Positions 32,851 to 50,285 of a stretch of DNA of 64,000 nucleotides are shown piece by piece (position 1 is the first letter of the stretch; every line of letters begins with the position of its first letter). Origin of the DNA: Streptomyces sp. MUM 178J (lineage in GTDB: Bacteria > Actinomycetota > Actinomycetes > Streptomycetales > Streptomycetaceae). The position numbers were made by a program, and so were the translations under genes. Under the pieces are notes generated by a model. The model was given only the letters and a program-made list of their open reading frames with translations. It did not search any database and was not told the origin of the DNA. Where the stretch lies: positions 42,855 through 106,854 of the forward strand of contig NZ_JADWYQ010000022.1 of the NCBI RefSeq assembly GCF_022414575.1, written 5' to 3'.

Positions 32851-32897
32851 CGTCGGAAACGACAACACAACGATCCGAACACCGTGAGCTGAGTCAT

Positions 32898-32909
32898 CTA
32901 CGCGCGTAG
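32898..32909. promoter_or_regulatory. Nucleoside operator palindrome, site 1 (pnp)
   Basis: CTACGCGCGTAG, perfect 12-bp palindrome, 25 bp before the pnp GTG. Identical sites precede deoC (37316) and add (50274). Confidence 0.75.
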
Positions 32910-32921
32910 GGAATGCTCGGC

Positions 32922-32927
32922 TACTCT
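32922..32927 (+). promoter_or_regulatory. -10 box of leaderless pnp
   Basis: TACTCT, 7 nt before GTG 32935 and 12 bp after the palindrome, so a bound repressor would cover the -35 region. Confidence 0.5.
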
Positions 32928-32934
32928 CGACGAC

Positions 32935-33777
32935 GTGAACGCATCTGTGAATCCCGAGCTCCACGGCGCTGCCGCCGATCCCCAGTCCGACCCGCACGGC
33001 ACCGCCGACGCCGCGGCCGCACGACTGCGCGAACTGACCGGCGCCGAGGCCCACGACGTCGCACTTGTGATGGGCTCCGGCTGGGCCCCGGCCGTCGACG
33101 CGCTCGGCGCGCCCGAGGCGGAGTTCCCGGTCACGGAGCTGCCGGGCTTCCCGCCCCCGGCGGTCGAGGGCCACGGCGGCAAGATCCGCTCGTACCGCGT
33201 CGGCGACAAGCGTGCGCTGGTCTTCCTGGGCCGTACGCACTACTACGAGGGCCGCGGCGTCGCGGCCGTGGCGCACGGCGTGCGCACGGCGGTGGCCGCG
33301 GGCTGCAAGACCGTCGTCCTGACGAACGGCTGCGGCGGTCTGCGCGAGGGCATGCGTCCCGGCCAGCCGGTGCTGATCAGCGACCACATCAACCTCACGG
33401 CGACCTCCCCGATCGTCGGCGCGAACTTCGTCGACCTGACGGACCTGTACTCGCCGCGGCTGCGGGCGCTGTGCAAGGAGGTGGACGAGACCCTCGAGGA
33501 GGGCGTCTACGTCCAGTTCCCCGGCCCCCACTACGAGACCCCGGCCGAGATCAACATGGTCCGCGTGCTGGGCGGCGACCTGGTCGGCATGTCCACGGTC
33601 CTGGAGGCCATCGCGGCCCGGGAGGCGGGCGCCGAGGTCCTCGGCATCTCCCTGGTGACCAACCTGGCGGCCGGTCTGACGGGCGAGCCCCTGAACCACG
33701 AGGAGGTCCTCCAGGCGGGCCGCGACTCGGCGGCGCGGATGGGCGAGCTGCTGACCCGGGTGCTGGCGCGGATCTGA
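32935..33777 (+). CDS. Purine nucleoside phosphorylase (trimeric type)
   Basis: Cleaves purine (deoxy)nucleosides with phosphate to base and (deoxy)ribose-1-phosphate. 280 residues from GTG 32935, supported by the leaderless promoter. The phosphate loop [13 protein letters not shown], the [11 protein letters not shown] segment with phosphate-binding His, [20 protein letters not shown], and the base-binding [20 protein letters not shown] are all present. [19 protein letters not shown] contains the Asn of hexameric/trimeric PNP specificity for 6-oxopurines. It starts the nucleoside zone; the sugar product feeds the mutase encoded next. Confidence 0.95.
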
Positions 33778-34651
33778 CGGCCCCTGAGGGATGTTCTCGC
33801 AGGCCGCGACCCCGCGCCCTGCGCGCCGGGACCCGACGGCCCCTGACGGTCCCCGGCCGAATCGCCGCATGGGGCCCGCCGGGAAGAACCTCACCGGCCG
33901 CCACCCGAGCGATACGGGCGCACCGCCCTCCCGCACCCGTATGCGAGCCGGGGACGGAACTCCCGGAACGCGCCGTCCCCACCGCACCTCCGTGCACCCC
34001 GGGGACTGCGGCGTCACCCCCCGGCGCCCCGCACCACCTGCACCACCTGCACCACCCGAGCGGACGCCGGAGCGACACCCGACGCCGCTCCCCCCGCGCA
34101 GCGCCCCGGGGGACTGCCGTCGCGCGGGAGGAGGCGCGTGGCGGCGGCCCCCGGGGGCGCACCCCGCGGATGCCGGGAACGGCGGGGAACCCCCGCCACC
34201 CCGGCAGCGACGCGGAACGACGCCCCACCCGCATGCCGCGGCACAAAGCAGCCGCCTTGCCGGGGCAGGCTCCCCGGAAGGGACGGGCCGGGCAGGCACC
34301 CAGGGAAGGAAGGGGCCGGGGTAGGCGCCCAGGAGAGGAAGGAGCCGGGGCAGAACCTCCGGACGGCGAGAACGGCGGGAAGCCCTCGCCGCACCCCGCA
34401 CCCCGCACCCCGGCAGCGGACACCGCACCCGCACACCGGCCCGGGAACCCGCCGACCGCGAAGCCGCGCCCGCCCGCGCGGTGCGCAGCAGACTCCCCGC
34501 CGAAGCCGTCACACGGCGGGCAGCCCCAGAAAACCGCCCGAAAACCTCCCCTGGGAGGGCCCCGGGGCGCATCCCCCGGTTACGGGAGGGGGCGGGGTGG
34601 GGGAGACAACCCCACAGACACCCATCAACCACCACGAGAGGCGACACCACA
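33778..34651. other. Long gene-free GC-rich stretch between pnp and the mutase gene
   Basis: No frame shows recognisable protein motifs; open frames are Pro/Arg/Gly-rich shadows. It contains degenerate direct repeats of GGAAGGGACGGGCCGGGCAG type (34270-34350), tandem CACCTG (34030-34050), CCGCACCC (34388-34410), and a second CCCCGGTTACGGGA module at 34561-34607. It looks like a decayed or repeat-expanded spacer. Confidence 0.55.
34561..34607. repeat. CCCCGGTTACGGGA module, copy 2
   Basis: CCCGGGGCGCATCCCCCGG, then TTACGGGAGGGGGCGGGG and TGGGGGAGA, matching the module at 23464-23511 in order and spacing. Confidence 0.6.
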
Positions 34652-36292
34652 GTGACCCAGGACCTCATCGCGCGAGCCAACGCCTGGCTGGCCGAGGACC
34701 CGGACGGCGAGACCCGCGAGGAGCTCGCGAAGCTCATCGAGTCACAGGACCTCGACGAGCTCGCCGCCCGCTTCGCCGGCACGCTCCAGTTCGGCACCGC
34801 CGGACTCCGCGGGGAGCTGGGCGCCGGGCCCATGCGGATGAACCGGGCCATCGTCATCCGCGCCGCCGCGGGCCTGGCCGGGTACCTCAAGGCCAAGGGC
34901 CGGGGCGACGGCCTCGTCGTCATCGGCTACGACGCCCGCTACAAGTCCGCGGACTTCGCCCGCGACACCGCCGCCGTCATGGTCGGCGCGGGTCTGCGCG
35001 CCGCCGTGCTGCCGCGCCCGCTTCCGACGCCGGTCCTGGCCTTCGCCATAAGGCAGCTCGGCGCGGTCGCCGGCGTCGAGGTGACCGCCAGCCACAACCC
35101 GCCGCGTGACAACGGCTACAAGGTCTACCTCGGCGACGGCTCCCAGATCGTGCCGCCCGCCGACGCGGAGATCGCGGCCGAGATCGCGGCGGTCGCGAGC
35201 CTGGACGACGTGGAGCGCGCCGCCGAGGGCTGGGAGACGCTCGGCGACGAGATCGTGGAGGCGTATCTGGCCCGTACGGACGCGGTGCTGGCGCCCTCCT
35301 CCCCCCGTACCGCCCGGGTGGTCTACACGGCCATGCACGGCGTCGGCAAGGACGTGCTGACGGCGGCGTTCGCCCGGGCCGGCTTCCCCGCCCCGGTGCT
35401 GGTCGAGGAGCAGGCGGAGCCGGACCCGGCCTTCCCGACGGTCGCCTTCCCGAACCCGGAGGAGCCGGGCGCGATGGATCTCGCATTCGCCGCCGCCCGC
35501 CGGGCGCAGCCGGACATCATCATCGCCAACGACCCCGACGCCGACCGCTGCGCCGTCGCCGTGCCGCACGAGGACGACTGGCGGATGCTGCGCGGCGACG
35601 AGGTCGGCGCGCTGCTCGCCGCCCATCTGGTGCACAAGGGTGCGACCGGCGCGTTCGCCGAGTCGATCGTCTCGTCCTCGCTCCTGGGCCGGATCGCGGA
35701 CGCCGCCGGACTGCGGCACGAGGAGACCCTGACCGGCTTCAAGTGGATCGCGCGTGTGGAAGGTCTGCGGTACGGCTACGAGGAGGCGCTCGGCTACTGC
35801 GTCGACCCCGAGGGCGTACGCGACAAGGACGGCATCACCGCCGCGCTGCTCGTCGCCGAGCTGGCGTCCGAGCTGAAGGAGCACGACCGCACGCTCACCG
35901 ACCTGCTCGACGACCTGGCCGTGGCGCACGGGCTGCACGCCACCGACCAGCTCTCCGTGCGGGTGGAGGACCTCAGCGTCATCGCCGACGCGATGCGCAC
36001 GCTGCGCGAGCAGCCTCCGGCCCGGCTCGCGGGGCTGCAGGTCGTCACCGCCGAGGACCTGACCCGGGGCACGGAAGCGCTGCCGCCGACGGACGGGCTG
36101 CGCTACTACCTGGAGGGCGAGTTCAAGGCACGCGTCATCGTCCGCCCCAGCGGCACCGAGCCGAAGCTGAAGTGCTACCTGGAGGTCGTGGTCCCGGTCG
36201 CGGACGCGAGTGAGTTGTCCACGGCACGGGAGAGTGCGACGCGGATCCTCTCGGCGATCAAGACGGACCTGGCGAGCGCGGCGGGCATCTGA
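34652..36292 (+). CDS. Phosphohexomutase-superfamily protein, likely phosphopentomutase or phosphomannomutase
   Basis: 546 residues from GTG 34652. Alpha-D-phosphohexomutase domains: LQFGTAGLRGELGAGPMRMN, the phosphoserine loop VEVTASHNPPRDNGYKVYLG (S147), metal loop IIIANDPDADRCAVAVP, sugar loop EEALGYCVDPEG and phosphate loop RPSGTEPKLKCYLEV. The long version is shared by PGM2-type enzymes, which use ribose- and deoxyribose-1-phosphate as well as glucose-1-phosphate. The position between pnp and deoC makes phosphopentomutase activity the attractive reading. No CTACGCGCGTAG site is found upstream. Confidence 0.93.
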   Translation: MTQDLIARANAWLAEDPDGETREELAKLIESQDLDELAARFAGTLQFGTAGLRGELGAGPMRMNRAIVIRAAAGLAGYLKAKGRGDGLVVIGYDARYKSADFARDTAAVMVGAGLRAAVLPRPLPTPVLAFAIRQLGAVAGVEVTASHNPPRDNGYKVYLGDGSQIVPPADAEIAAEIAAVASLDDVERAAEGWETLGDEIVEAYLARTDAVLAPSSPRTARVVYTAMHGVGKDVLTAAFARAGFPAPVLVEEQAEPDPAFPTVAFPNPEEPGAMDLAFAAARRAQPDIIIANDPDADRCAVAVPHEDDWRMLRGDEVGALLAAHLVHKGATGAFAESIVSSSLLGRIADAAGLRHEETLTGFKWIARVEGLRYGYEEALGYCVDPEGVRDKDGITAALLVAELASELKEHDRTLTDLLDDLAVAHGLHATDQLSVRVEDLSVIADAMRTLREQPPARLAGLQVVTAEDLTRGTEALPPTDGLRYYLEGEFKARVIVRPSGTEPKLKCYLEVVVPVADASELSTARESATRILSAIKTDLASAAGI

Positions 36293-36301
36293 CGCCCCCG
36301 G

Positions 36302-36331
36302 TGCGCCGCGCCCCGGCCGGGGCGCGGCGCA
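36302..36331. terminator. Perfect 30-bp palindrome after the mutase gene
   Basis: 15-bp arms beginning TGCGCCGCGCCCCGG, with no loop, 9 bp past the stop. Probable terminator. Confidence 0.6.
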
Positions 36332-36586
36332 GCCGTCCGTCCGCGCCGTGCCCGCCCGCACCGCCCGGACGCGGGAGACCACCGGCGTGCGCCGCCGGCC
36401 GGACGCCCACCTTCGAGGCCGCCCGGGCCACCGCCGACAGGCAGTCGGGCAGCGACTGCGCGCCCGACCATGCCCGGCGGGCACGCGGTGGGAGGCATGG
36501 CGCCCACGGCCCCCGACGCCTGGGCGAGGGGGCTGAAACGGGCTGCGCCGGCCGTGCCGGGCGAGGCGCCCTGAGAAGGGCGTGGC

Positions 36587-37222
36587 TCAGCCGGTCGCGA
36601 GCAGCACCGCCAGCACCACCGCGCCCGCCGCGGCCGGCGCCGCCACCTCGTAGGCCCAGCGGACCTGGGGCTCGCCCTGGGCGCCGGGAAGAGGCCCGCA
36701 GCGCTCGGCCGTCTCCCGCAGGTCGGCGATCGTCTGGTCGGCGGGGGCCAGCCGCGACTCCTGGTCGCGGACGTCTGCCGTGGCGGACGTCCGGCCGTGC
36801 GGATCGTCGTACGCAGCCTGCGCCTGCCGCCGCGCTGCGCGCTTGCGCTGCCGCAGCGATACGGGGATCGCCCAGAGCTGGTACTTGCGGCCGCCCTGGG
36901 TGAAGATCTCGCTCGAGTATCCGGCGCGCACATCGGCCACGGACCCCCAAGGCAGCACGATGTTGCGGAATGGGTTCCTGATGCGGATACGCTCGTCGTT
37001 GGCGAAGACCGCGGGCCGCACGGTGAACGCCACCACGAGCGGCACGACGAGCAGCGCCCCTGCCAGGGCGAGCCACGGGGTGCGGCCCTCGCCGCGGATC
37101 ACGGCGTCGCCGACGATCCACAGGATCAGCGCGAGCAGCAGCCCGCCGCCCACCAGTCCGCCGGTGGACCGGAAGACCCGGTCGGCGTAGGCGGGCTCGG
37201 CGGGCTGCTGGGGACTCGTCAT
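36587..37222 (-). CDS. PH domain-containing membrane protein
   Basis: 211 residues. Two N-terminal transmembrane helices (residues 22-42 GGLVGGGLLLALILWIVGDA and 52-70 LALAGALLVVPLVVAFTVR). A bacterial PH domain follows (FANDERIRIRNPFRNIVLPW, GSVADVRAGYSSEIFTQGGR). A charged segment and a third hydrophobic segment at the C-terminus (AAPAAAGAVVLAVLLATG) complete it. It is on the opposite strand to the flanking nucleoside genes, between the mutase and deoC, as in other streptomycetes from memory. Function unknown. Confidence 0.88.
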   Translation of the reverse strand: MTSPQQPAEPAYADRVFRSTGGLVGGGLLLALILWIVGDAVIRGEGRTPWLALAGALLVVPLVVAFTVRPAVFANDERIRIRNPFRNIVLPWGSVADVRAGYSSEIFTQGGRKYQLWAIPVSLRQRKRAARRQAQAAYDDPHGRTSATADVRDQESRLAPADQTIADLRETAERCGPLPGAQGEPQVRWAYEVAAPAAAGAVVLAVLLATG

Positions 37223-37315
37223 GCCTCCGATTCTGCCGCACGCGCCGGAGCGGCTCCCTCGCGGAGCCCGCAGGTCACGATCCGGCAGCGTCGCCTGCGT
37301 CCTCTGTACAGTCCG

Positions 37316-37327
37316 CTACGCGCGTAG
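37316..37327. promoter_or_regulatory. Nucleoside operator palindrome, site 2 (deoC)
   Basis: CTACGCGCGTAG, 13 bp before the deoC GTG and one base before its -10 box. Identical to the sites at pnp and add. Confidence 0.75.
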
Positions 37328-37328
37328 A

Positions 37329-37334
37329 TATGCT
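37329..37334 (+). promoter_or_regulatory. -10 box of leaderless deoC
   Basis: TATGCT, 6 nt before GTG 37341. Confidence 0.5.
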
Positions 37335-37340
37335 CCTCTC

Positions 37341-38288
37341 GTGACCATGCCCACCACTGCATTCGCTGACGTGACCGCGTCCGACAGCGCACTGCGCCGC
37401 TTCCTCCACGGCCTCCCCGGCGTCGACGCCGTGGGGCTGGAGGCTCGCGCCGCATCGCTCGGCACGCGCTCGATCAAGACCACGGCCAAGGCGTACGCCA
37501 TCGATCTGGCCATCTCGATGATCGATCTGACGACGCTCGAAGGCGCGGACACCCCGGGCAAGGTCCGGGCGCTCGCCGCCAAGGCCGTCCATCCCGATCC
37601 GACTGACCGCACCACGCCGACGACCGCCGCCGTCTGTGTCTACCCGGACATGGTCGCGACCGCCAAGGAGGCCCTGAAGGGGGCCGACGTCAAGGTCGCG
37701 TCCGTGGCCACCGCCTTCCCCGCCGGCCGCGCCGCGCTCGACATCAAGCTCGCGGACACCCGCGACGCCGTCGCCGCCGGGGCCGACGAGATCGACATGG
37801 TGATCGACCGCGGCGCGTTCCTCTCCGGCCACTACCTCAGGGTGTACGAGGAGATCCGGGCCGTGAAGGAGGCCTCCGGCCCGGCCCGGCTGAAGGTCAT
37901 CTTCGAGACCGGCGAGCTGTCCACGTACGACAACATCCGCCGCGCCTCCTGGCTCGGCATGCTCGCGGGCGCGGACTTCATCAAGACCTCCACCGGGAAG
38001 GTCGCGGTGAACGCCACTCCGGCGAACACCCTCCTGATGCTCCAGGCCGTGCGCGACTTCCGGGAGCAGACTGGAATCCAGGTGGGAGTGAAGCCGGCCG
38101 GCGGCATCCGCACCTCCAAGGACGCGATCAAGTTCCTGGTCCTGGTGAACGAGACCGCGGGCGCGGACTGGCTGGACAACCACTGGTTCCGGTTCGGCGC
38201 CTCCAGCCTGCTGAACGATCTGCTGCTGCAGCGTCAGAAGCTGGCGACCGGCCGCTACTCCGGCCCCGACTACGTGACGGTGGACTGA
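37341..38288 (+). CDS. deoC: Deoxyribose-phosphate aldolase
   Basis: Splits 2-deoxyribose-5-phosphate into acetaldehyde and glyceraldehyde-3-phosphate. 315 residues from GTG 37341, chosen because it lies 6 nt after the -10; ATG 37347 (MPTTAF) is the alternative. Class I aldolase motifs are AAVCVYPDMVATAKEAL, DEIDMVIDRGAFLSGHY, LKVIFETGEL and the Schiff-base region GADFIKTSTGKVAVNATP, with VKPAGGIRTSKDA near the C-terminus. The next gene starts 5 bp after its stop, so aldolase and aldehyde dehydrogenase are coexpressed and the acetaldehyde produced can be oxidised. Confidence 0.95.
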   Translation: MTMPTTAFADVTASDSALRRFLHGLPGVDAVGLEARAASLGTRSIKTTAKAYAIDLAISMIDLTTLEGADTPGKVRALAAKAVHPDPTDRTTPTTAAVCVYPDMVATAKEALKGADVKVASVATAFPAGRAALDIKLADTRDAVAAGADEIDMVIDRGAFLSGHYLRVYEEIRAVKEASGPARLKVIFETGELSTYDNIRRASWLGMLAGADFIKTSTGKVAVNATPANTLLMLQAVRDFREQTGIQVGVKPAGGIRTSKDAIKFLVLVNETAGADWLDNHWFRFGASSLLNDLLLQRQKLATGRYSGPDYVTVD

Positions 38289-38293
38289 GCCCC

Positions 38294-39754
38294 ATGAACC
38301 AGACATCCACACCCGCTTCCCCTTCCCCCTTCGAGTACGCGCCGGCCCCCGAGTCCCGCTCGGTCGTCGACATCGCCCCCTCGTACGGGCTCTTCATCGA
38401 CGGCGAGTTCGCCGAGGCCGCCGAGGGCAAGGTCTTCAAGACGATCTCCCCCGCCACCGAGGAGGTCCTCTCCGAGGTCGCCCGGGCGGGCGCCGAGGAC
38501 GTCGACCGGGCGGTGCGGGCCGCCCGCAAGGCGTTCGAGAAGTGGTCGGCGCTGCCCGGCGCCGAGCGTGCCAAATACCTCTTCCGCATCGCGCGGATCA
38601 TCCAGGAGCGCTCCCGCGAGCTGGCCGTCCTGGAGACCCTCGACAACGGCAAGCCGATCAAGGAGACCCGCGACGCGGACCTCCCCCTGGTAGCCGCGCA
38701 CTTCTTCTACTACGCGGGCTGGGCCGACAAGCTGGACCACGCGGGCTACGGGCCGAACCCCCGGCCGCTGGGCGTGGCCGGCCAGGTCATCCCGTGGAAC
38801 TTCCCGCTGCTGATGCTCGCCTGGAAGATCGCCCCGGCGCTGGCCGCCGGCAACACGGTGGTGCTGAAGCCGGCCGAGACAACCCCGCTGTCCGCGCTGT
38901 TCTTCGCGGACATCTGCCGCCAGGCGGGTCTGCCCAAGGGCGTCGTCAACATCATCCCCGGATACGGGGAGGCCGGCGCGGCCCTGGTCGAGCACCCGGA
39001 TGTGAACAAGGTCGCCTTCACCGGCTCCACCGCCGTCGGCAAGGCGATCGCCCGCCAGGTCGCCGGCACCCGCAAGAAGGTCACCCTGGAGCTGGGCGGC
39101 AAGGGCGCGAACATCGTCTTCGACGACGCCCCGATCGACCAGGCCGTCGAGGGCATCGTCGGCGGCATCTTCTTCAACCAGGGCCAGGTCTGCTGCGCGG
39201 GCTCCCGCCTCCTCGTCCAGGAGTCCATCCAGGACGAGCTGCTGGACTCCCTCAAGCGCCGGCTGTCCACCCTCCGTCTGGGCGACCCGCTGGACAAGAA
39301 CACCGACATCGGCGCGATCAACTCCGCCGAGCAGCTGGCCCGGATCACGGCCCTCGCCGAGGCCGGCGAGGCCGAAGGCGCCGAGCGCTGGTCCCCCGCC
39401 TGCGAACTGCCCTCCTCCGGCTACTGGTTCGCGCCCACCGTCTTCACGGGCGTCACCCAGGCGCACACGATCGCGCGCGACGAGATCTTCGGCCCGGTGC
39501 TGTCCGTCCTCACCTTCCGTACGCCGGACGAGGCGGTGGCGAAGGCCAACAACAGCCCGTACGGCCTGTCGGCGGGCATCTGGACGGAGAAGGGCTCGCG
39601 CATCCTGGCGGTGGCGAACAAGCTCCGCGCCGGAGTCGTCTGGGCCAACACGTTCAACAAGTTCGACCCGACCTCGCCGTTCGGCGGCTACAAGGAGTCG
39701 GGGTTTGGCCGCGAGGGCGGCCGCCACGGTCTGGAGGCGTACCTCGATGTCTGA
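38294..39754 (+). CDS. Aldehyde dehydrogenase (catalytic)
   Basis: NAD(P)-dependent oxidation of an aldehyde, most likely the acetaldehyde from DeoC. 486 residues. The N-terminal NAD domain has GQVIPWNFPLLMLAWK and KPAETTPLS. The NAD-site FTGSTAVGK and general base Glu in LELGGKGANIV (E266) are intact. The nucleophile is Cys300 in FFNQGQVCCAGS, followed by DEIFGPVLSVLTF. Its last 8 bp overlap the next ALDH-like gene, implying a fixed stoichiometry between the two proteins. Confidence 0.95.
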   Translation: MNQTSTPASPSPFEYAPAPESRSVVDIAPSYGLFIDGEFAEAAEGKVFKTISPATEEVLSEVARAGAEDVDRAVRAARKAFEKWSALPGAERAKYLFRIARIIQERSRELAVLETLDNGKPIKETRDADLPLVAAHFFYYAGWADKLDHAGYGPNPRPLGVAGQVIPWNFPLLMLAWKIAPALAAGNTVVLKPAETTPLSALFFADICRQAGLPKGVVNIIPGYGEAGAALVEHPDVNKVAFTGSTAVGKAIARQVAGTRKKVTLELGGKGANIVFDDAPIDQAVEGIVGGIFFNQGQVCCAGSRLLVQESIQDELLDSLKRRLSTLRLGDPLDKNTDIGAINSAEQLARITALAEAGEAEGAERWSPACELPSSGYWFAPTVFTGVTQAHTIARDEIFGPVLSVLTFRTPDEAVAKANNSPYGLSAGIWTEKGSRILAVANKLRAGVVWANTFNKFDPTSPFGGYKESGFGREGGRHGLEAYLDV

Positions 39755-40646
39755 TACTCCCGCACGCCTTGGCGTCTTCAAGACCTACAAGCTGTACGTC
39801 GGGGGCAAGTTCCCCCGCTCCGAGAGCGGCCGGGTGTACGAGGTGACCGACTCCAAGGACAAGTGGCTGGCCAACGCCCCACTCGCGTCCCGCAAGGACG
39901 CCCGGGACGCGGTCGTCGCAGCCCGCAAGGCGTTCGGCGGCTGGTCGGGCGCGACCGCGTACAACCGCGGGCAGATCCTCTACCGCATCGCGGAGATGCT
40001 GGAGGGCCGCCGGGACCAGTTCGTCCGCGAAGTGGCGGACGCGGAGGGCCTGTCGAAGTCCAAGGCCGCCGCCCAGGTGGACGCGGCCGTCGACCGCTGG
40101 GTCTGGTACGCGGGCTGGACCGACAAGATCGGCCAGATCGCAGGAGGGGCAAACCCGGTCGCGGGTCCGTTCTTCAACCTCTCCACCCCGGAGCCGACCG
40201 GCGTCGTGGCGGTCCTGGCCCCCCGGAAGTCGTCCTTCCTCGGCCTGGTGTCCGTAGTGGCCCCGGTGATCGCGACCGGGAACACGGCCGTCGTGATCGC
40301 CTCCGAGGAGTCCCCGCTGCCCGCGCTGTCCCTCGGCGAGGTGCTGGCCACCTCCGACCTGCCGGGCGGCGTGGTGAACGTCCTGTCCGGCCGCACGGCG
40401 GAGATCGCGGCCCCGCTCGCCGCGCACCAGGACGTCAACGCGATCGACCTCACGGGCGCCGCGGACGACGAGGCGCTGGCCAAGGAGCTGGAGACCGCGG
40501 CCGCGGACAACCTCAAGCGGGTGCTCCGTCCACAGGCTGTGGACTGGAACGAGACGCCGGGAACGGGCCGGCTGACGGCGTTCCTGGAGACGAAGACGGT
40601 CTGGCACCCGACGGGTTCGCTGGGTGCGTCGGGCTCCTCGTACTGA
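39747..40646 (+). CDS. Truncated, non-catalytic aldehyde dehydrogenase-like protein
   Basis: 299 residues from ATG 39747, overlapping the preceding ALDH. It aligns with the N-terminal coenzyme domain (YKLYVGGKFPRSESGRVYEV, VAVLAPRKSSFLGLVSVVAP, EVLATSDLPGGVVNVLSG). It stops near the point where the catalytic domain should begin, so the GQxC cysteine motif is absent, and the glutamate motif is not recognised. No frame remnant of a catalytic domain follows; a terminator comes 40 bp later, so this is a stable short form. The pair mirrors the catalytic plus pseudo-domain layout of ALDH16 proteins, but split. Role probably structural. Confidence 0.88.
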   Translation: MSDTPARLGVFKTYKLYVGGKFPRSESGRVYEVTDSKDKWLANAPLASRKDARDAVVAARKAFGGWSGATAYNRGQILYRIAEMLEGRRDQFVREVADAEGLSKSKAAAQVDAAVDRWVWYAGWTDKIGQIAGGANPVAGPFFNLSTPEPTGVVAVLAPRKSSFLGLVSVVAPVIATGNTAVVIASEESPLPALSLGEVLATSDLPGGVVNVLSGRTAEIAAPLAAHQDVNAIDLTGAADDEALAKELETAAADNLKRVLRPQAVDWNETPGTGRLTAFLETKTVWHPTGSLGASGSSY

Positions 40647-40686
40647 GCACCGGTCCCGAACGCGCCGTCCCCGAACGCTCCCGAGC

Positions 40687-40725
40687 CGAAGGCCCCGCCG
40701 CATCCCTCACACGGCGGGGCCTTCG
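40687..40725. terminator. Terminator of the deoC-ALDH operon
   Basis: 14-bp stem CGAAGGCCCCGCCG / CGGCGGGGCCTTCG with an 11-nt loop, 40 bp after the stop. Confidence 0.8.
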
Positions 40726-40776
40726 CCCGTACAGTCCGGTGTACGGGTCTTCGCCCGCACACCAAACTCGGCCGGC

Positions 40777-41895: not shown

Positions 41896-41923
41896 GCACA
41901 GGCGAACAGTGCGCGGCTTCCGA

Positions 41924-42441: not shown

Positions 42442-43050
42442 TTGACTCCGCATTCCCTCGCCTTCTACATGGACGTGGTCGCCTCCGGGGCGGTGCTCGG
42501 CGCCAAGCCGACGGACAGCCCCGGCCGGGTCACCGCGATCCTGGGTTCCGATTTCGCCGAGAACTCCTTCGATGACCACAGTATGTGGCGCGACTACGGA
42601 ATGGCCGAGTTCTTCTGGACACGTGAATCGCCGGACCATGCTTGGGAGGGTCACCACTTCACCCTGCAGGTACATCGGCTCGCGCACTGGGGCGGCAGCG
42701 TCGTCAACAGGGCGATTCGCAACCGGTACGGGCGCTTTGACCGCCATCTCCGGTTCGGCAAACTGGAACGGCTGCTGCGGAAGCGCGGCGTGCCTCTGGA
42801 AGATGTCCCGGACGTGAACGCTCCCGCCTTCACCCAGCACTGGCAGCCCGCTTCACAGGTGTCCGTGAGGGTGTTCCGGGCCCACGATGAATGGCGACAA
42901 CGTCGGCGCAGCGACAGCCGTATCGGAGATGTGCACGCCATCCACTCATCGGTGAGCGCCGAGGAAGTGGCATGGAGTAGGGAGCGCTACGGTCGTCAGG
43001 ACTTGATGAGCGGTGCGTCTCGTATGAACCGCGGGCACCCGACGCCGTAG
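42442..43050 (+). CDS. Uncharacterised Streptomyces protein
   Basis: 202 residues from TTG 42442, with AAGGAAAG about 7 nt upstream. Conserved-looking blocks are FYMDVVASGAVLGAKPTDSP, WRDYGMAEFFWTRESPDHAW, EGHHFTLQVHRLAHWGG and FDRHLRFGKLERLLRKRGVP. It resembles lineage-specific proteins I associate loosely with polymorphic-toxin immunity proteins, but I cannot name a family. No signal or membrane segment. The IS701 relic starts 35 bp downstream, marking this as accessory DNA. Confidence 0.7.
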   Translation: MTPHSLAFYMDVVASGAVLGAKPTDSPGRVTAILGSDFAENSFDDHSMWRDYGMAEFFWTRESPDHAWEGHHFTLQVHRLAHWGGSVVNRAIRNRYGRFDRHLRFGKLERLLRKRGVPLEDVPDVNAPAFTQHWQPASQVSVRVFRAHDEWRQRRRSDSRIGDVHAIHSSVSAEEVAWSRERYGRQDLMSGASRMNRGHPTP

Positions 43051-43085
43051 TACAGCTCGCGTCCCGTCGTGCCTGGCCGGGGCCG

Positions 43086-43350
43086 ATGCAGCGCCTGCTG
43101 GCTGCGCCACCTGGGACTCCGTTGCCGTCGGCGACGATGTCCATGCCCGCGCCGTCGAGCACCTCGGCGCCAGCGGAAGGGTTCCGGTCGTGGACGAGAC
43201 CCGCTTGGTGAAGAAGCCACGCGTCGGCGATTGTGCAGCAGCAGTACACGGGCACCGCAGGACGCATCGAGAACTCCCAGGTCGGGGTGTTCCTCGTCTA
43301 CGCCACCAGCCGAGGACGGGCGCTGGTCGACCGGCCGCACCGCAGAGACA
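43086..43350 (+). pseudogene. IS701-type transposase relic (frameshifted)
   Basis: Fragments in different frames line up with IS701-family DDE transposases: MQRLLAA (43086), then [30 protein letters not shown] (43109-43218), then after a further frameshift [32 protein letters not shown] (43233-43332). Functional members read [31 protein letters not shown] and GRALIDRELYLP. Both ends are missing and no terminal inverted repeats were identified. Confidence 0.88.
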
Positions 43351-43354
43351 GACG

Positions 43355-43395
43355 CGTGGGACCGGACAAGACCCCCCGGCCTGTCCGGTCCCACG
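43355..43395 (-). terminator. Terminator downstream of sigQ
   Basis: 14-bp stem CGTGGGACCGGACA / TGTCCGGTCCCACG with a 13-nt loop, about 137 bp after the sigQ stop. Confidence 0.65.
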
Positions 43396-43531
43396 ATCCC
43401 CCGTGTCCCCCGCGTCTCTCCCCCGTACCCGCGGTCCCCGTCTGCCAACGCGAGACCCTCGGGCCCCGGTCGGCAGCCTCCCCCGATGCCGCCGACCGAA
43501 GTCCCCCCGTTTTCCCCAGTCCCCCCGCCCC

Positions 43532-44278
43532 TCAGGCGACGAGTTCGCCGAAGGACTCCTCCTGGTCGCGGCCGAGGCTGAGGACCTCGTCGTCCCGCAG
43601 CCTGCGGAGCGAGCGCCAGATGCTGGACTTCACCGTGCCGACGCTGATGTCGAGGATCTCCGCGATCTCGGGGTCCGTACGTCCCTCGTAGTACCGCAGG
43701 ACCAGCATCGTCCGCTGCAGCTCCGGAAGCCTGGCCAGCGCCTGCCACAGCACCGCGCGCAGTTCCGTGCCCCGCATCGCGTCCGTGTCGCCGGCCGTCT
43801 CCGGCAGCTCTTCCGTCGGGTACTCGTTGAGCTTGCGCCGACGCCAGGCGCTGATGTGCAGATTCGTCATCGTGCGGCGCAGATACCCGCCGACCGCCGC
43901 CTTGTCGGTGATCCTGTCCCAGGCCCGGTATGTGGAGAACAGCGCGCTCTGCAGCAGGTCCTCCGCCTCGAACCGGTCGCCGGTCAGGTGGTACGCGGTC
44001 GCGTAGAGGGAGGCGCGGCGCTCCTGCACAAAGGCGGTGAACTCCGCCTCCGAGCAGATCTGCCGCTCCCCCGTCGCCTCCCCCTGCGCACTCCCGCCGC
44101 CCCCCTCGGGCGCGTCGACCACCGCCATGTACGGCGGCTTGTGCTGACGCCCGGCGCCGCGAACGCACCCCCGCCCGCTCACAGCGCCGGACTTCTTCTC
44201 ACTCACCCGGTCACTCCGGCCGATGTCGTGGAGCCGCGTGATCACCGCGCTCGAACCGGAGCTGTGCAGTGCGTTCAT
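43532..44278 (-). CDS. sigQ: SigE-family ECF sigma factor SigQ
   Basis: 248 residues from ATG 44278 ([10 protein letters not shown]). A variable 75-residue N-terminus precedes region 2 ([34 protein letters not shown]) and region 4 ([40 protein letters not shown]). It is divergent from afsQ1-afsQ2. In S. coelicolor SigQ is a direct AfsQ1 target that antagonises antibiotic production; the shared intergenic region with an AfsQ1 box here fits. No anti-sigma gene is adjacent. Confidence 0.93.
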
Positions 44279-44372
44279 CTCGCGCCCCCCTGTCGTGTGG
44301 AGTGTCTTCCGGGTGGTGTGTCCGTGTGCCAAAGAGCTTGCCCGGGCAGTTTCATCGCCCTGTCCGCCGACT

Positions 44373-44388
44373 GTCACAGCCGCGTCAC
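44373..44388. promoter_or_regulatory. AfsQ1 binding site between sigQ and afsQ1
   Basis: GTCAC-AGCCGC-GTCAC, an exact match to the published GTnAC-n6-GTnAC AfsQ1 consensus, 95 bp from the sigQ start and 105 bp from the afsQ1 start. Confidence 0.85.
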
Positions 44389-44492
44389 AGGGGACGTGGG
44401 CATGTGCGGAAAGTGTGGGGACGGGCCGCGGAGCCGGTCCACTGGTCGGCCAACGGTCGAACTCCGGCTCCCCCATAGGTCAGAATGACGCC

Positions 44493-45170
44493 GTGCCTTT
44501 CCTGTTGCTGATCGAGGACGACGACGCCATCCGCACGGCCCTCGAGCTCTCCCTGTCCCGTCAGGGCCACCGTGTGGCCACCGCGGCGACGGGCGAGGAG
44601 GGCCTCAAGATGCTGCGTGAGCAGCGGCCGGATCTGATCGTGCTGGACGTGATGCTGCCCGGCATCGACGGCTTCGAGGTGTGCCGCCGCATCAGGCGCA
44701 CCGACCAGCTTCCGATCATCCTGCTCACGGCGCGCAGCGATGACATCGACGTGGTCGTGGGCCTGGAGTCGGGCGCGGACGACTACGTCGTGAAGCCCGT
44801 GCAGGGCCGGGTCCTCGACGCCCGCATCCGGGCGGTGCTGCGCCGCGGAGAGCGCGAGTCGACCGACTCGGCGACGTTCGGCTCCCTGGTGATCGACCGC
44901 TCCGCGATGACGGTCACCAAGAACGGCGAGGATCTTCAGCTCACGCCGACCGAGCTGCGGCTGCTGCTGGAGCTGAGCCGCAGGCCGGGACAGGCGCTCT
45001 CCCGCCAGCAGCTGCTGCGGCTGGTCTGGGAGCACGACTACCTCGGCGACTCACGGCTGGTGGACGCGTGTGTGCAGCGGCTGCGCGCGAAGGTCGAGGA
45101 CGTGCCGTCCTCGCCGACCCTGATCCGCACGGTGCGGGGTGTTGGCTACCGCCTGGACGCGCCCTCATGA
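44493..45170 (+). CDS. afsQ1: Response regulator AfsQ1 (OmpR type)
   Basis: 225 residues from GTG 44493, the length known for AfsQ1. Receiver domain with acidic pocket IEDDD, phosphorylated Asp52 (LIVLDVMLPG), Thr in LLTARS and Lys in VVKPVQ. A winged-helix domain follows (LQLTPTELRLLLELSRRPGQ, DSRLVDACVQRLRAKVED, LIRTVRGVGYRLDAPS). It activates sigQ and antibiotic-pathway regulators in relatives, notably when glutamate is the nitrogen source. The stop overlaps a 19-codon mini-ORF leading into afsQ2. Confidence 0.95.
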   Translation: MPFLLLIEDDDAIRTALELSLSRQGHRVATAATGEEGLKMLREQRPDLIVLDVMLPGIDGFEVCRRIRRTDQLPIILLTARSDDIDVVVGLESGADDYVVKPVQGRVLDARIRAVLRRGERESTDSATFGSLVIDRSAMTVTKNGEDLQLTPTELRLLLELSRRPGQALSRQQLLRLVWEHDYLGDSRLVDACVQRLRAKVEDVPSSPTLIRTVRGVGYRLDAPS

Positions 45171-45226
45171 TCCCTGTGACGCCACTGCGCCGCGCGAGCG
45201 GAGACACGGACGGAAGAGCACATTGA
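45167..45226 (+). CDS. Possible 19-codon coupling ORF between afsQ1 and afsQ2
   Basis: ATG overlaps the afsQ1 TGA (ATGA at 45167-45170). The ORF reads MIPVTPLRRASGDTDGRAH and its TGA (45224-45226) overlaps the proposed afsQ2 TTG (TTGA). It could hand ribosomes from afsQ1 to afsQ2. There is no independent evidence of translation. Confidence 0.35.
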   Translation: MIPVTPLRRASGDTDGRAH

Positions 45227-46869
45227 GCGGTGCCGCAAAGCGCGCGATACTTTCCGGCCTTCGCCTCACCAGTCTCCGCGTACGTCTCGTCGTCGTCTTC
45301 GCCCTGGTCGCGCTGACCGCCGCCGTCTCCGCCTCCGGCATCGCCTACTGGCTCAACCGCGAGGCCGTGCTCACCCGCACCCAGGACGCGGCGCTCGACG
45401 GCTTCCGGCAGGACATGCAGAACCGGGCCGCCGCGCTGCCGCTGCGCCCCACCCAGTACGAGCTGGAGAAGACCGCCCAGCAGATGGCCGGCGGCGGCGA
45501 GGGCTACAACGTGCTGCTGATCGGTGAGCGCGCCGCGGGCAAGCCGATCGTCGGAGCGTCGAACCGGGACGAGTTCACGCTGGACGACGTGCCGCCGCGG
45601 CTGCGGGACGCGGTGGACAAGCGGCAGGATCTGAGCGCGGGCAACGCGGCCCCGTACCACCTGTACTGGCTGCGCACCGAGCGCGCCGGCAAGCCGTATC
45701 TGGTGGGCGGCACCAGGATCATCGGCGGCGGGCCGACCGGCTTTGTCTTCAAGTCGCTGGAGCAGGAGCGGCAGGACCTCAATTCGCTGGCCTGGTCACT
45801 GGGGATCGCGACCCTGCTGGCGCTGGTGGGCTCCGCCCTGCTCGCGCAGGCCGCGGCGACGACGGTGCTCAAGCCGGTGCACCGGCTCGGCGAGGCGGCC
45901 CGGCGGCTGGGCGAGGGCAAGCTCGACACCCGGCTGCGGGTCTCGGGCACGGACGAGCTCGCGGAGCTGGCGCGGACGTTCAACAAGACCGCGGAGTCGC
46001 TGGAGAAGAAGGTCGCGGACATGAGCGCGCGGGAGGAGTCCAGCCGCCGCTTCGTCGCCGATATGTCGCATGAGCTGCGTACGCCGATGACCGCGCTGAC
46101 CGCCGTGACCGAGGTGCTGGAGGATGAGGCGGACAGCCTTGATCCGATGATCGCCCCGGCCGTGCAGCTCGTGGTCAGCGAGACGCGGCGGCTCGGCGAC
46201 CTGGTGGAGAACCTGATGGAGGTCACCCGCTTTGACGCGGGCACCGCCAGGCTCGTGCTGGACGATGTGGACGTAGCCGACCAGGTCACCGCCTGTATCG
46301 ACGCACGGGCCTGGCTGGACGCGGTGGAGCTGGACGCCGAGCGGGGGATCATGGCGCGGCTCGATCCTCGGCGGCTCGACGTGATCCTGGCGAATCTGAT
46401 CGGCAACGCGCTCAAGCACGGCGGCTCGCCTGTGCGGGTGTCCGTTCGGCTGCTCGGTGGAGAGGGAGAGCCGGACGGCGCGGAGGAGTTGCTGATCGAG
46501 GTGCGCGACCACGGGCCCGGCATTCCCGAGGAGGTGCTGCCGCATGTCTTCGACCGCTTCTACAAGGCGAGCGCGTCGCGGCCCCGCTCGGACGGCAGCG
46601 GTCTCGGGCTGTCCATCGCGATGGAGAACGCCCATATCCACGGCGGCGACATCACCGCGTCGAACTCGCCGGACGGTGACGGTGCGATCTTCGCGCTGCG
46701 GCTGCCGCGCGACGTCTCGACGCTCCGCGAGGCTGCCGACGGCGGCGAGGACCGGCGCGGAGGCGGCCGGGACGGTCACCACGCCCGGGGTGACCGGGGT
46801 GGTCAGGGCGGCCGGGACGGCCGACGCGCCGACGGCCGGGACGGGGACGAGGGGGTGGACGCACAGTGA
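45223..46869 (+). CDS. afsQ2: Sensor histidine kinase AfsQ2
   Basis: 548 residues from TTG 45223. Transmembrane helix 1 is at about 20-42 (VRLVVVFALVALTAAVSASG), an extracytoplasmic sensor domain at 43-185, and helix 2 at about 190-212 (WSLGIATLLALVGSALLAQA). HAMP follows, then the H-box FVADMSHELRTPM (His283). ATPase boxes are NLIGNALKHGG (N), VRDHGPGIPEE (G1), FDRFYKAS (F) and GSGLGLSIA (G2). The last 45 residues are Gly/Arg/Asp-rich with no domain. Partner of AfsQ1. The GTGA overlap with the next lipoprotein gene shows an operon. Confidence 0.94.
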   Translation: MSGAAKRAILSGLRLTSLRVRLVVVFALVALTAAVSASGIAYWLNREAVLTRTQDAALDGFRQDMQNRAAALPLRPTQYELEKTAQQMAGGGEGYNVLLIGERAAGKPIVGASNRDEFTLDDVPPRLRDAVDKRQDLSAGNAAPYHLYWLRTERAGKPYLVGGTRIIGGGPTGFVFKSLEQERQDLNSLAWSLGIATLLALVGSALLAQAAATTVLKPVHRLGEAARRLGEGKLDTRLRVSGTDELAELARTFNKTAESLEKKVADMSAREESSRRFVADMSHELRTPMTALTAVTEVLEDEADSLDPMIAPAVQLVVSETRRLGDLVENLMEVTRFDAGTARLVLDDVDVADQVTACIDARAWLDAVELDAERGIMARLDPRRLDVILANLIGNALKHGGSPVRVSVRLLGGEGEPDGAEELLIEVRDHGPGIPEEVLPHVFDRFYKASASRPRSDGSGLGLSIAMENAHIHGGDITASNSPDGDGAIFALRLPRDVSTLREAADGGEDRRGGGRDGHHARGDRGGQGGRDGRRADGRDGDEGVDAQ

Positions 46870-47540
46870 GGCCGCAGGGATCGATGACGTCGTCCAGGAC
46901 GTCGAGGGGAGCAGCCCGCCGGGTCGCCGCCCTGCTGCTGGGCGCCGCCGTGCTGAGCGGCTGCGGCATCAGGACGACCCAGGTGCCGGTGGACGCCGGG
47001 ACTGCGCCGTCGCGCGTGCCGTGCGAGGTGTCCGGCGAGGACGCCGCCTCCGAGGCGCAGGCCGACAGCCTGTCGGTGCGGATCTATCTGATGTGCACCT
47101 CGCAGCTGGAACAGGTGGTACGCGTCGCGCAGATCCCCGAGGAGAAGGCGGCCGTCAGTCCGCTGCTGATCGCCAGGGCGCTGCTGGACGAGCTGGCCGA
47201 GCAGCCGTCCCAGGCGGAGCAGGAGGCCGGGTTCGCCACCCATGTGAACGAACCGATCGGGCTGAACGGCCCGCGTGCGGGCGACCCCGCGGGCACGCTG
47301 CGGCTGAGCCGGCAGCCGGAGGACCTCCCGGCGGGGGCGCTCGCCCAGATCGTGTGCACCTTCGCCGAGAACGGCGTCGCCGTGGCGGAGGACTCCGTGG
47401 TGCTGGGCGGCCCCGGGGAGTACGAGCCCCGGGGCTACCGGTGCGACACACGGGCCAAGGAACGGCCCGAGGGACCGATGCCGACGCTCTCGGCCCTGCC
47501 CCCGGCCGCCGTCTCCCCTTCCGCTTCGGCCTCGTCCTGA
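46866..47540 (+). CDS. AfsQ-operon lipoprotein
   Basis: 224 residues from GTG 46866, overlapping the afsQ2 stop. The twin-Arg-containing signal RRVAALLLGAAVLSGCG has lipobox LSGC (Cys about 33). The mature part has two conserved cysteines (PCEVSG, LMCTSQ), then IVCTF and YRCDT, perhaps forming disulfides. It probably acts on the outer face of the membrane as an accessory or sensing partner for AfsQ2, as the equivalent gene downstream of afsQ2 (SCO4905 from memory) is in the same transcription unit. No enzyme motif. Confidence 0.88.
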   Translation: MRPQGSMTSSRTSRGAARRVAALLLGAAVLSGCGIRTTQVPVDAGTAPSRVPCEVSGEDAASEAQADSLSVRIYLMCTSQLEQVVRVAQIPEEKAAVSPLLIARALLDELAEQPSQAEQEAGFATHVNEPIGLNGPRAGDPAGTLRLSRQPEDLPAGALAQIVCTFAENGVAVAEDSVVLGGPGEYEPRGYRCDTRAKERPEGPMPTLSALPPAAVSPSASASS

Positions 47541-47593
47541 CCTGTTCGCCCGGGTGCGGAACCGATTCACGCACGGTACGCGTCTAGGGGGGC

Positions 47594-48175
47594 GTGCAGC
47601 GTCAAGGTAAGGGCGGCAGCGCCGCCATCCGCTTCCGCGCGGCGGGAGGCGTTCTCCTCTTCGCGCATCTGCTGCTCGTCGCCTGGCTCACGCTGCGCCC
47701 GCGCGACGTGCTGTGGGTGACGGCCGCGAACTTCGAACCGCTGGCCGGGATCAGAGCGGATCTGGCGCTCGGCCCCGTGGAGGCGGCCCGCCGACTGGGT
47801 GAGGGCTTGATGCTGCTGGCCCCGCTGGGCGTGCTGCTGCCGATGGCGGGAGGCCGGCTGGATGTCTCCCCGTGGGGGTCGCTGGCCCGTACCGTGACCG
47901 CCGGGGCACTGCTGTCGCTGGGGATCGAGCTGCTGCAGACCGGTGTGCCCGGGCAGGTCGTCGATGTGGACTCGCTGCTGCTGAACACGGTCGGGGTGGC
48001 GCTCGCCCATCTGCTGGTGGTGCCCGTGGGACGGGCCAGGCTGCGCCGCAGACAGCCGGGCGCGGCGAGGAGCGGCGGCTCGGGGCGGGGCGGGGCGCGC
48101 CCCGGGACCGTACTGCGGGAGGAGTCGCCTCAGGGGCCGACCCCGACGATTACCAGGGTCGGGATCGCCCCGTAG
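47594..48175 (+). CDS. VanZ family membrane protein
   Basis: 193 residues from GTG. Helices lie near 14-36 (AAGGVLLFAHLLLVAWLTL), 72-90 (LGEGLMLLAPLGVLLPMAG), 100-116 and 128-146. The NFEPLAG and ELLQTGVPGQVVDVDSLLLN motifs are the VanZ-like signature. Members of this family occur with glycopeptide resistance genes, but most actinomycete copies stand alone. There is no van operon in the window. The C-terminal 40 residues are Gly/Arg-rich. It follows the lipoprotein gene by 53 bp and could be in the afsQ transcript. Confidence 0.88.
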   Translation: MQRQGKGGSAAIRFRAAGGVLLFAHLLLVAWLTLRPRDVLWVTAANFEPLAGIRADLALGPVEAARRLGEGLMLLAPLGVLLPMAGGRLDVSPWGSLARTVTAGALLSLGIELLQTGVPGQVVDVDSLLLNTVGVALAHLLVVPVGRARLRRRQPGAARSGGSGRGGARPGTVLREESPQGPTPTITRVGIAP

Positions 48176-48275
48176 AGGGACGCTTTGCCCCGCTGTTGCG
48201 GCCATGATGGAGTCATCGGGAGCACACGGAGTGACTCCCTCCGAGGACTGACCAGGACTCTCGAAGGAGCCCACC

Positions 48276-48479
48276 ATGGCCGCACTTGTCCGCCCCACTG
48301 AAGGACGCATGATCGGCGGAGTGTGCGCAGCGCTGGCCCGGCGCTTCGGCACCTCCGCGACGACGATGCGCGTCATCTTCCTGGTCTCGTGCCTGCTGCC
48401 GGGCCCGCAGTTCCTGCTCTACCTGGCCCTGTGGGTGCTGCTGCCGTCGGAGAAGAAGACGGCGAACACGGCCTGGTGA
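48276..48479 (+). CDS. PspC domain protein
   Basis: 67 residues, a single PspC domain: LVRPTEGRMIGGVCAALARR, FGTSATTMRVIFLVSCLLPG, then membrane segment PQFLLYLALWVLLPS. PspC proteins sit in the membrane and take part in envelope stress responses in enterobacteria; stand-alone short forms are common in actinomycetes. GAAGGAG lies 8 nt before the ATG. A strong terminator follows. Confidence 0.92.
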   Translation: MAALVRPTEGRMIGGVCAALARRFGTSATTMRVIFLVSCLLPGPQFLLYLALWVLLPSEKKTANTAW

Positions 48480-48497
48480 CGCGTGCTTGACGCATAT

Positions 48498-48531
48498 GTG
48501 GGGTGCCCGCCGGATTCGGCGGGCACCCCAC
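48498..48531. terminator. Terminator after the PspC gene
   Basis: 15-bp perfect stem GTGGGGTGCCCGCCG / CGGCGGGCACCCCAC with a GATT loop, 18 bp after the stop. Confidence 0.85.
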
Positions 48532-48579
48532 GTGTGCGTGCGGGCTGCGGTGTCGTACGCGCTATGTGGCGCAGAGCGG

Positions 48580-48975
48580 TCAGCCGAGGGGCGACGCCGG
48601 CAGTCCGCCGAGGAGCGGAACCCCGCCCGCGCCCTGGGAGACGGGGCCGAGGAGGCTGGAGACCGGGTCGTGGGCGTGGTCGGTCGGCAGGGTCCTGGTC
48701 GCCGCGGCTTCGGCGGTGGCTGGCAGGTTCATGGCGCTGTCCGCCAGGGCCTGCCCGCTGCCCGCGAGGGATTCGTTCGCACCCGCGGGGAGCTTCGAGG
48801 CGACCTCCTGCACCGGAGCGACCTCCCCGACCGGCAGCATCTTGGTGACGGTGTCCAGCGAGGTGGCGGAGTCCGGGAGCGCGGCGGGCTCGGCGGCGGC
48901 GGCCCCCGCGGCGGCAGCGGCGAAGGCGGCGCCGAGAGCGGCGACGCCGAGAGTCTTGGCGGCAGACTGCTTCAT
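48580..48975 (-). CDS. Small secreted Ala/Pro-rich protein
   Basis: 131 residues from ATG 48975 (MKQSAAKTLGVAALGAAFAA). A Sec signal peptide with cleavage near AAA-EP. The mature region is Ser/Leu/Pro/Ala-rich without cysteine, with helical segments (ATSLDTVTKMLPVGEVAPVQ, ESLAGSGQALADSAMNLPAT) and the C-terminal SSLLGPVSQGAGGVPLLGGL. This resembles in style the protein encoded at 40777-41130. No function is known. It is convergent with the PspC gene, with the hairpin between. Confidence 0.82.
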   Translation of the reverse strand: MKQSAAKTLGVAALGAAFAAAAAGAAAAEPAALPDSATSLDTVTKMLPVGEVAPVQEVASKLPAGANESLAGSGQALADSAMNLPATAEAAATRTLPTDHAHDPVSSLLGPVSQGAGGVPLLGGLPASPLG

Positions 48976-49102
48976 CAGGAGGAGTCCTTGAGGACGGGGA
49001 TATGAGCGGCTCCGCAAGCTATCCATGATCCGACACAAGCCGCAAACAGCGCGAAACGACCGGAAATTGACATCTCTGGCCGCTTCGCGATATGCGCTCC
49101 GC

Positions 49103-50257
49103 TCAGCCTTCGCGCACCGGGGAATCGCCGGTCACAGCGGTCTGCCGGAACAGCCATTCGGACTTCAGCTCGGCATAGCCGGGCTTGATCACGTCATTGA
49201 TCATCGCCAGTCGTTCATCGAAAGGAATGAACGCCGACTTCATCGCATTGACGGTGAACCACTGCATGTCATCGAGCGTGTATCCGAAGGTCTCGGTCAG
49301 CAGCTCGAACTCGCGGCTCATGCTCGTACCGCTCATCAGCCGGTTGTCGGTGTTCACCGTGGCCCGGAAGTGGAGCCTGCGCAACAGGCCGATCGGGTGC
49401 TCGGCGTAGGAGGCGGCGGCGCCCGTCTGCAGATTGGACGTCGGGCACAGCTCCAGCGGGACGCGCTTGTCCCGTACGTACGCGGCCAGCCGGCCGAGCT
49501 TCACACTGCCGTCGTCGGCGACCTCGATGTCGTCGATGATGCGCACACCGTGGCCCAGGCGGTCGGCGCCGCACCACTGGAGGGCCTGCCAGATCGAGGG
49601 CAGCCCGAATGCCTCGCCCGCGTGGATCGTGAAGTGGTTGTTCTCCCGCTTCAGATACTCGAAGGCGTCCAGGTGCCGGGTGGGCGGATAGCCCGCCTCC
49701 GCTCCGGCGATGTCGAAGCCGACGACCCCGGAGTCCCGGTAGCGGTTGGCCAGTTCGGCGATCTCCAGGGCGCGGGCGGCATGGCGCATCGCGGTCAGCA
49801 GCGCGCCCACCCGGATGCGGCAGCCGCTCTCGCGGGCCCGCCGCTCGCCCTCGCGGAAGCCGGCGTTGACCGCCTCCACCACCTCTTCGAGGGTGAGTCC
49901 GGACTCCAGATGCTGCTCGGGCGCGTACCGGACCTCCGCGTAGACGACTCCGTCCTCGGCGAGGTCCACGGCGCACTCGGCGGCCACCCGGAACAGCGCG
50001 TCGCGCGTCTGCATCACGGCGCAGGTGTGGGCGAAGGTCTCCAGATAGCGCTCCAGCGAGCCGGAGTCGGCGGCCTCCCGGAACCAGATGCCGAGTTTGT
50101 CGGGCTCGGTCTCGGGGAGCAGTTCGTACCCGGCATCCCGGGCGAGGTCGATGATCGTGCCGGGGCGCAGCCCGCCGTCGAGGTGGTCGTGGAGCAGCAC
50201 CTTCGGGGCGCGGCGGATCTGGTCCGCGGTAGGCAGGTTGGGTGTCTGGCTCGTCAT
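49103..50257 (-). CDS. add: Adenosine deaminase
   Basis: Deaminates adenosine and deoxyadenosine to inosine forms, which purine nucleoside phosphorylase can cleave. 384 residues. Zinc ligands are His23/His25 in [13 protein letters not shown], and His in [11 protein letters not shown] followed by Asp in [10 protein letters not shown]. The catalytic Glu is in [14 protein letters not shown] and [11 protein letters not shown] complete the active site. A leaderless promoter (TAGAGT -10, 6 nt from the ATG) follows the CTACGCGCGTAG palindrome, linking its expression to pnp and deoC 13-17 kb away. Confidence 0.96.
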
Positions 50258-50263
50258 CTGCGC

Positions 50264-50269
50264 ACTCTA
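50264..50269 (-). promoter_or_regulatory. -10 box of leaderless add
   Basis: TAGAGT on the minus strand, 6 nt before the add ATG. Confidence 0.5.
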
Positions 50270-50273
50270 GCCC

Positions 50274-50285
50274 CTACGCGCGTAG
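50274..50285. promoter_or_regulatory. Nucleoside operator palindrome, site 3 (add)
   Basis: CTACGCGCGTAG, 4 bp upstream of the add -10 box. Identical to the sites at 32898 and 37316. Confidence 0.75.

Follow-up and report, generated by a model that had tools for sequence, protein, structure and literature searches.

The locus examined here raises the question of whether a 12 bp palindrome that recurs in front of three genes of nucleoside breakdown is the operator of a common regulon, and which protein would bind it. A scan of the window (the whole stretch of DNA analysed, 64,000 nucleotides) places exact copies of the palindrome, CTACGCGCGTAG, at 32898–32909, 37316–37327 and 50274–50285, and no further exact copy was found elsewhere in it, in agreement with an earlier note on this DNA. 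The copies lie before pnp, encoding purine-nucleoside phosphorylase (32935–33777, plus strand; NCBIfam TIGR01698), deoC, encoding deoxyribose-phosphate aldolase (37341–38288, plus strand; TIGR00126), and add, encoding adenosine deaminase (49103–50257, minus strand; NF006847). All three products pass the equivalog cut-offs of these models, which bears out the nucleoside pathway that the note had proposed. Its promoter description also holds, in that each palindrome is followed by a predicted TAnnnT -10 box and then a start codon 6–7 nt further on: TACTCT at 32922–32927 (plus strand), 7 nt before the GTG of pnp; TATGCT at 37329–37334 (plus strand), 6 nt before the GTG of deoC; and TAGAGT at 50264–50269 (minus strand), 6 nt before the ATG of add. 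A perfect 15 bp tandem repeat, TCACCGGCGGCGGGT, is present in 6.1 copies at 32760–32851, just 5' of the pnp promoter.

Markov models of order 1–4 predict about 0.002 exact copies of CTACGCGCGTAG in the window. One other 12 bp palindrome, CCGCGGCCGCGG, which consists of G and C only, is likewise present there in three copies. With up to two mismatches there are 5 matches versus 4.34 expected from shuffled sequence, and thus only the exact copies in the window exceed chance. The whole host genome (6.63 Mb in 127 contigs) contains no exact match to the reversed control pattern and just three exact copies of CTACGCGCGTAG, all inside the window and before pnp, deoC and add; the random genome-wide scatter against which the note had cautioned is not seen. 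Allowing one mismatch adds 10 further places in the host genome versus 29 per strand for the reversed control, so that lone near-copies mean little without conservation. The pattern CTACGCGNGT places 9 of its 28 distinct host sites at nucleic-acid scavenging or related target genes, with the rest mostly intragenic, and its reversed control gives more matches in total (42 and 28).

Comparison with other genomes shows that the palindrome is a family-wide feature. At least one exact copy, and mostly three to five, is present in 199 of 200 Streptomycetaceae genomes, with 16 of 17 genera represented, and the reversed control across the 200 genomes gives 0–3 matches per strand. In the one remaining family genome, G069, deoC is marked by CTACGCGAGTAG and pnp by CTACGCGCGTTA in place of an exact copy. 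In a survey of 61 genomes (the host plus 60; 37 of the same genus and 24 of other families), all 37 same-genus genomes carry 3–6 exact copies, and 21 of the 24 from other families have none. The other three have a single copy each, two within one kind of gene, which we take to be guaB, and the third away from target genes. Among the same-genus loci (L017–L042), 22 of 26 are at pnp, add or an ABC ATPase gene, the remainder being two contig ends with no gene call, one HAD-like gene and one intragenic site. Similarly, 27 of 30 further family loci (L062–L091) are at pnp, add, deoC or an ABC ATPase gene, and the other three sites are intragenic; two of the ATPase labels and one pnp label were assigned by reading.

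The same picture emerges when orthologous genes are followed. A site within two mismatches of CTACGCGCGTAG is present at 26 of 26 pnp loci (19 exact) and 22 of 23 deoC loci (10 exact), an exact copy is present at all 14 add loci, a second add gene accounting for two of these, and 6 of 7 BMP loci have CTACGCGCGTTA, counts that include some loci chosen for carrying copies. In 20 loci chosen instead through deoR, the gene for the DeoR-family protein discussed below, sites within two mismatches are found at pnp in all 20 (13 exact), at deoC in 15 of 16 (3 exact) and at add in 6 of 6. The palindrome together with the deoC -10 box was found in at least 120 stretches of named genomes; the 80 matches listed are all from Streptomyces or Kitasatospora, and pnp has an exact copy as well in the 20 of these that cover its start. 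Outgroup pnp genes, called at 10 of 14 loci, have best matches with at least four mismatches in all 10 cases. Searching three genomes with CTACGCGHRTWR gave 23 of 36 sites at functionally related targets (two of them, in G013, by gene order only), the other 13 being intragenic or at genes with no evident link, and 1–6 matches per strand and genome for the reversed control. Conservation upstream of orthologues thus extends across the family, both in the 199 of 200 genomes and at the level of the pnp, deoC and add orthologues, and these conserved sites argue for the dedicated regulon that the note had suspected. The regulon is real, family-wide and functionally coherent.

It is also larger than the earlier note had envisaged. 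Near-exact copies of the palindrome, in the host, its relatives or both, accompany genes for a nucleoside importer, phosphoesterases, a nuclease, a permease, a lysozyme and purSQL. On host contig C37, CTACGCGCGTTA precedes a BMP (PnrA-like) receptor gene and CTACGCGTGTAG an ABC ATPase gene, from which the row continues through two permeases to cdd; CTATGCGCGTAG precedes deoA on the same contig. The predicted nucleoside transporter and thymidine phosphorylase members therefore have near-copies of their own in the host genome, and the predicted cytidine deaminase member, cdd, sits in the transporter gene row. The deoA site is absent from four relatives.

Conserved near-copies at genes for secreted nucleotidases, a nuclease, a lysozyme, a purine permease and purSQL show that the scope of the original proposal was too narrow. 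A secreted 5'-nucleotidase gene has a near-copy in the host (assigned by Pfam) and in G009, G013 and G138 (assigned by sequence), and a related secreted phosphoesterase gene has one in the latter three genomes and at three loci with CTACGCGTGTAG, with Pfam assignments for three of the proteins. The host also has a near-copy at a secreted nuclease of the Exo_endo_phos family (by Pfam); a partial relative in G013 (L248), matched by eye and without a Pfam match, has two sites. The gene for a purine permease (Xan_ur_permease), presumably AzgA-like, has CTCCGCGCGTAG in the host and in 6 of 6 relatives; the site lies in a promoter region that the gene shares with a divergent small gene. One-mismatch sites in four variants occur at a secreted GH25 lysozyme gene in 14 of 29 loci (Pfam confirms three of the proteins); no such site is present at four loci that do have the lysozyme, or at one that has a similar secreted gene. 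A further secreted protein, with no family above cut-off, has one exact copy and one near-copy in its promoter (L055 in G011).

The presence of purSQL, an operon of de novo purine synthesis, among the targets is unexpected, and it is the only place in that pathway at which a conserved site was seen. The purS site takes the form CTACGCGAGTAG in 12 of the 29 loci viewed, including the host, whose PurS was identified by Pfam; its conservation in this form is partial, since CTACGCGWGTAG is present at all in just 21 of 41 same-genus genomes. The gene divergent from purS is presumably lsr2. Several genomes (L174, L177, L189 and other purS loci) have a further CTACG half-site 5' of the purS site (tCTACGaatCTACGCGaGTAG).

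Other near-copies were seen in no more than one or two genomes, at genes for an SGNH hydrolase (L207, L209), a HAD-like protein (L033/L059, with the same place in G024), an acid phosphatase (L244 in G013) and a GmrSD_C nuclease (L264 in the host), at L182, beside what we take to be a ParB-like gene, and at host deoA. A site at a host nitrilase cluster, CTACGTGCGTAG, was dropped as a target and is not counted, because six relatives show this variant only twice, both times at the MarR/GH25 locus.

The position of the palindrome relative to the promoter is gene-specific and conserved. It lies 1 nt from the -10 box in 23 of 23 distinct deoC promoters (with 6 nt from there to the GTG), 4 nt in 22 of 22 add promoters (6 nt to the start) and 12 nt in 32 of 35 pnp promoters (then 6–7 nt), counts for which the search pattern itself demanded TAnnnT. 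When it is not demanded, TAnnnT is in place at 22 of 22 deoC loci with a site, at 12 of 14 add loci (both of the others being the second add gene) and at 19 of 26 pnp loci, where the seven without it come from genera g15, g17, g18 and g23. The conserved spacing from -10 box to start codon is consistent with promoters of the leaderless type, as had been suggested. The second adenosine deaminase gene, present in three genomes (L026/G007, L057/G033 and L058/G026), carries an exact palindrome within codons 3–7, an arrangement that fits a repressor and not an activator, and the range of site positions, from -35 into coding sequence, likewise fits a repressor.

We consider it very probable that CTACGCGCGTAG and its near-copies form the operator of one Streptomycetaceae-specific repressor with a shared regulon, and repression is, to judge from the placement of the sites, the most likely mechanism. 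The earlier note had named the DeoR-type gene (29530–30501, minus strand) as the closest candidate by position. Its product has both an HTH_DeoR and a DeoRC sensor domain above the Pfam cut-offs and matches a solved fragment of a deoxyribose operon repressor (7l6l; E 3.7e-7). It falls below the E. coli DeoR model NF007961 (72.2 bits versus a cut-off of 244), and its best NCBIfam model is AgaR (184 versus 260), no equivalog cut-off being reached. Orthologues with at least 71% identity are present in 34 of 34 family genomes tested, and the best identity in 13 genomes outside the family is 44%. The distance from deoR to pnp is 2.2–3.1 kb in 23 of 25 loci and 7–8 kb in the other two. The HTH averages 99.8% identity, the sensor domain 86% and the tail 46% across 40 distinct sequences from the 34 genomes, a few of which are truncated at locus ends. 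Measured against the window proteins, identity is 98% for the deoR HTH (the loss being mainly at the start codon), 72% for the lysR HTH and 93% for the afsQ1 DNA-binding domain, the last of which indicates that high HTH conservation is not unique to deoR.

The phylogenetic distribution of the gene parallels that of the palindrome. A sister-family genome (G037) keeps the gene order from lpd to deoC and is missing both deoR and the palindrome; deoR is also missing from three loci of another family, where the pnp or deoC promoters checked are without the motif. The common origin of deoR and motif counts as a single event in evolution, and any regulator specific to the family would show the same. 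The deoC promoter of G037 (L292) retains a TATGCT box and has a lone half-site, CGCGTAG, possibly an operator precursor or a chance occurrence.

Linkage, co-occurrence and the HTH make the DeoR-family protein the best candidate and not just the closest one, on circumstantial grounds and with no site of its own, and we lean slightly towards it as the regulator of the regulon. The same regulon could instead be controlled by another, unlinked family-specific protein, for example of the LacI, GntR or TetR type, with DeoR controlling something else, and we regard this as a serious possibility that falls somewhat short of an even chance. A perfect palindrome centred on CG is the kind of site that would suit a LacI-type protein, and the deoR locus is tied to the regulon just circumstantially. 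The note had also expected one regulator gene to have the palindrome in its own promoter, and no such gene was found among the loci viewed; upstream of deoR itself, the best match in all of 50 stretches from 34 genomes has at least three mismatches, and autoregulation of deoR through a site with two or fewer mismatches was rejected. The region upstream of deoR (30502–30600, minus strand) has a conserved sequence of its own, with a TACTGT-like box 7 nt before the GTG, and from this pattern deoR looks to be leaderless too, but under different control. Against an unlinked repressor, all 25 of 25 loci have deoR close to pnp, gene and motif occur together and are both missing from the sister-family genome, and the deoR HTH, unlike that of the lysR control, is almost invariant; the loci viewed show no other regulator gene with its own site.

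It is improbable that the palindrome works as an activator site or as part of the core promoter rather than as a repressor site. Its fixed position at each gene across the family would agree with such a role, but the distance to the -10 box varies between genes (1, 4 and 12 nt), the second add gene has the palindrome within its coding sequence, and the TATGCT of deoC is retained in the sister family with no palindrome beside it. Least probable is that the MarR-family gene adjoining the GH25 lysozyme gene is the autoregulated regulator: the one-mismatch copies do lie between these two genes, in four variants at 14 of 29 loci, but a divergent secreted gene is present at 14 of 14 site loci (GH25 by motif in 9 and by position in 5) and none of the 10 loci with no visible secreted gene, the host included, carries a site, so that the site tracks the lysozyme gene, and the MarR gene was rejected.

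The E. coli DeoR regulon comprises deoCABD, nupG and tsx and has a 16 bp AT-rich operator. The Streptomyces regulon would resemble it in placing nucleoside phosphorolysis, deoC and nucleoside uptake under a repressor, with a DeoR-family protein as candidate. The operator differs, the Streptomyces protein is below the E. coli DeoR model cut-off, and the Streptomyces set further takes in add, secreted enzymes, a purine permease and purSQL. E. coli CytR, a LacI-family protein that works with CRP, has a regulon that likewise joins cdd, phosphorylases and nucleoside transport; CytR is not of the DeoR family, however, and no CytR-like regulator was found in the Streptomyces loci. The PurR proteins of E. 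coli and B. subtilis are purine repressors, and the Streptomyces regulon resembles theirs in that it includes purSQL, from de novo purine synthesis, as well as a purine permease, but most of its members are scavenging and catabolic genes. We take SCO4920 to be the S. coelicolor orthologue of the DeoR-family gene. In the available portions of two papers, SCO4920 is the centre of an inferred network with no nucleoside genes in it (PMC3224704) and is included in a table of glucose-affected regulators (PMC4848846). AdeR, HpxR and UriR, as presented in the accessible part of PMC4052901, are LacI-family nucleoside regulators that similarly exert local control of nucleoside use; that part gives no link to the motif, and the regulator family here is only a candidate. 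Two papers were listed as containing the exact string. No description of the motif or regulon was found in the open full-text literature searched, nor is there an account of either in the available portions of PMC2276206, PMC13379591, PMC3224704, PMC4848846, PMC7244524, PMC6593405, PMC4052901 and PMC3840689. Both are thus provisionally new to the literature.

The most probable scenario is that the operator overlaps the -35/-10 region of leaderless-type promoters (in one gene it lies within the first codons), such that a bound repressor would block RNA polymerase. The targets would then lead stepwise from the remains of dead cells into central metabolism, beginning with secreted lysozyme and nuclease and secreted nucleotidases, passing through the BMP/ABC importer (with cdd in its row) and the purine permease, and continuing with add, pnp, deoC and, in the host genome, deoA; purSQL would also be included. 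The repressor would most likely be the DeoR-family protein, encoded 2–3 kb from pnp. DeoR-family sensors bind sugar phosphates, and our guess is accordingly that the repressor is released by a nucleoside breakdown product, with a pentose phosphate as the likeliest. More tentatively, and with rather less than even confidence, we propose that one DeoR-type, sugar-phosphate-sensing repressor, acquired at the base of the Streptomycetaceae, runs a necromass programme of cell-wall lysis, extracellular nucleic-acid digestion, nucleotide dephosphorylation, and nucleoside uptake and breakdown, and also sets de novo purine synthesis.

A 12 bp operator kept across a whole family provides a directly testable regulon, a candidate regulator and a list of secreted targets, together with an unexpected link between scavenging and purine synthesis and a few conserved promoters whose operator falls within the core promoter. 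In soil, streptomycetes are surrounded by dead cells, and they also lyse some of their own mycelium; no account of the control of nucleic-acid recycling in Streptomyces was found in open papers. If the proposed programme is correct, it would tie the recycling of lysed hyphae and other dead cells to growth and development.
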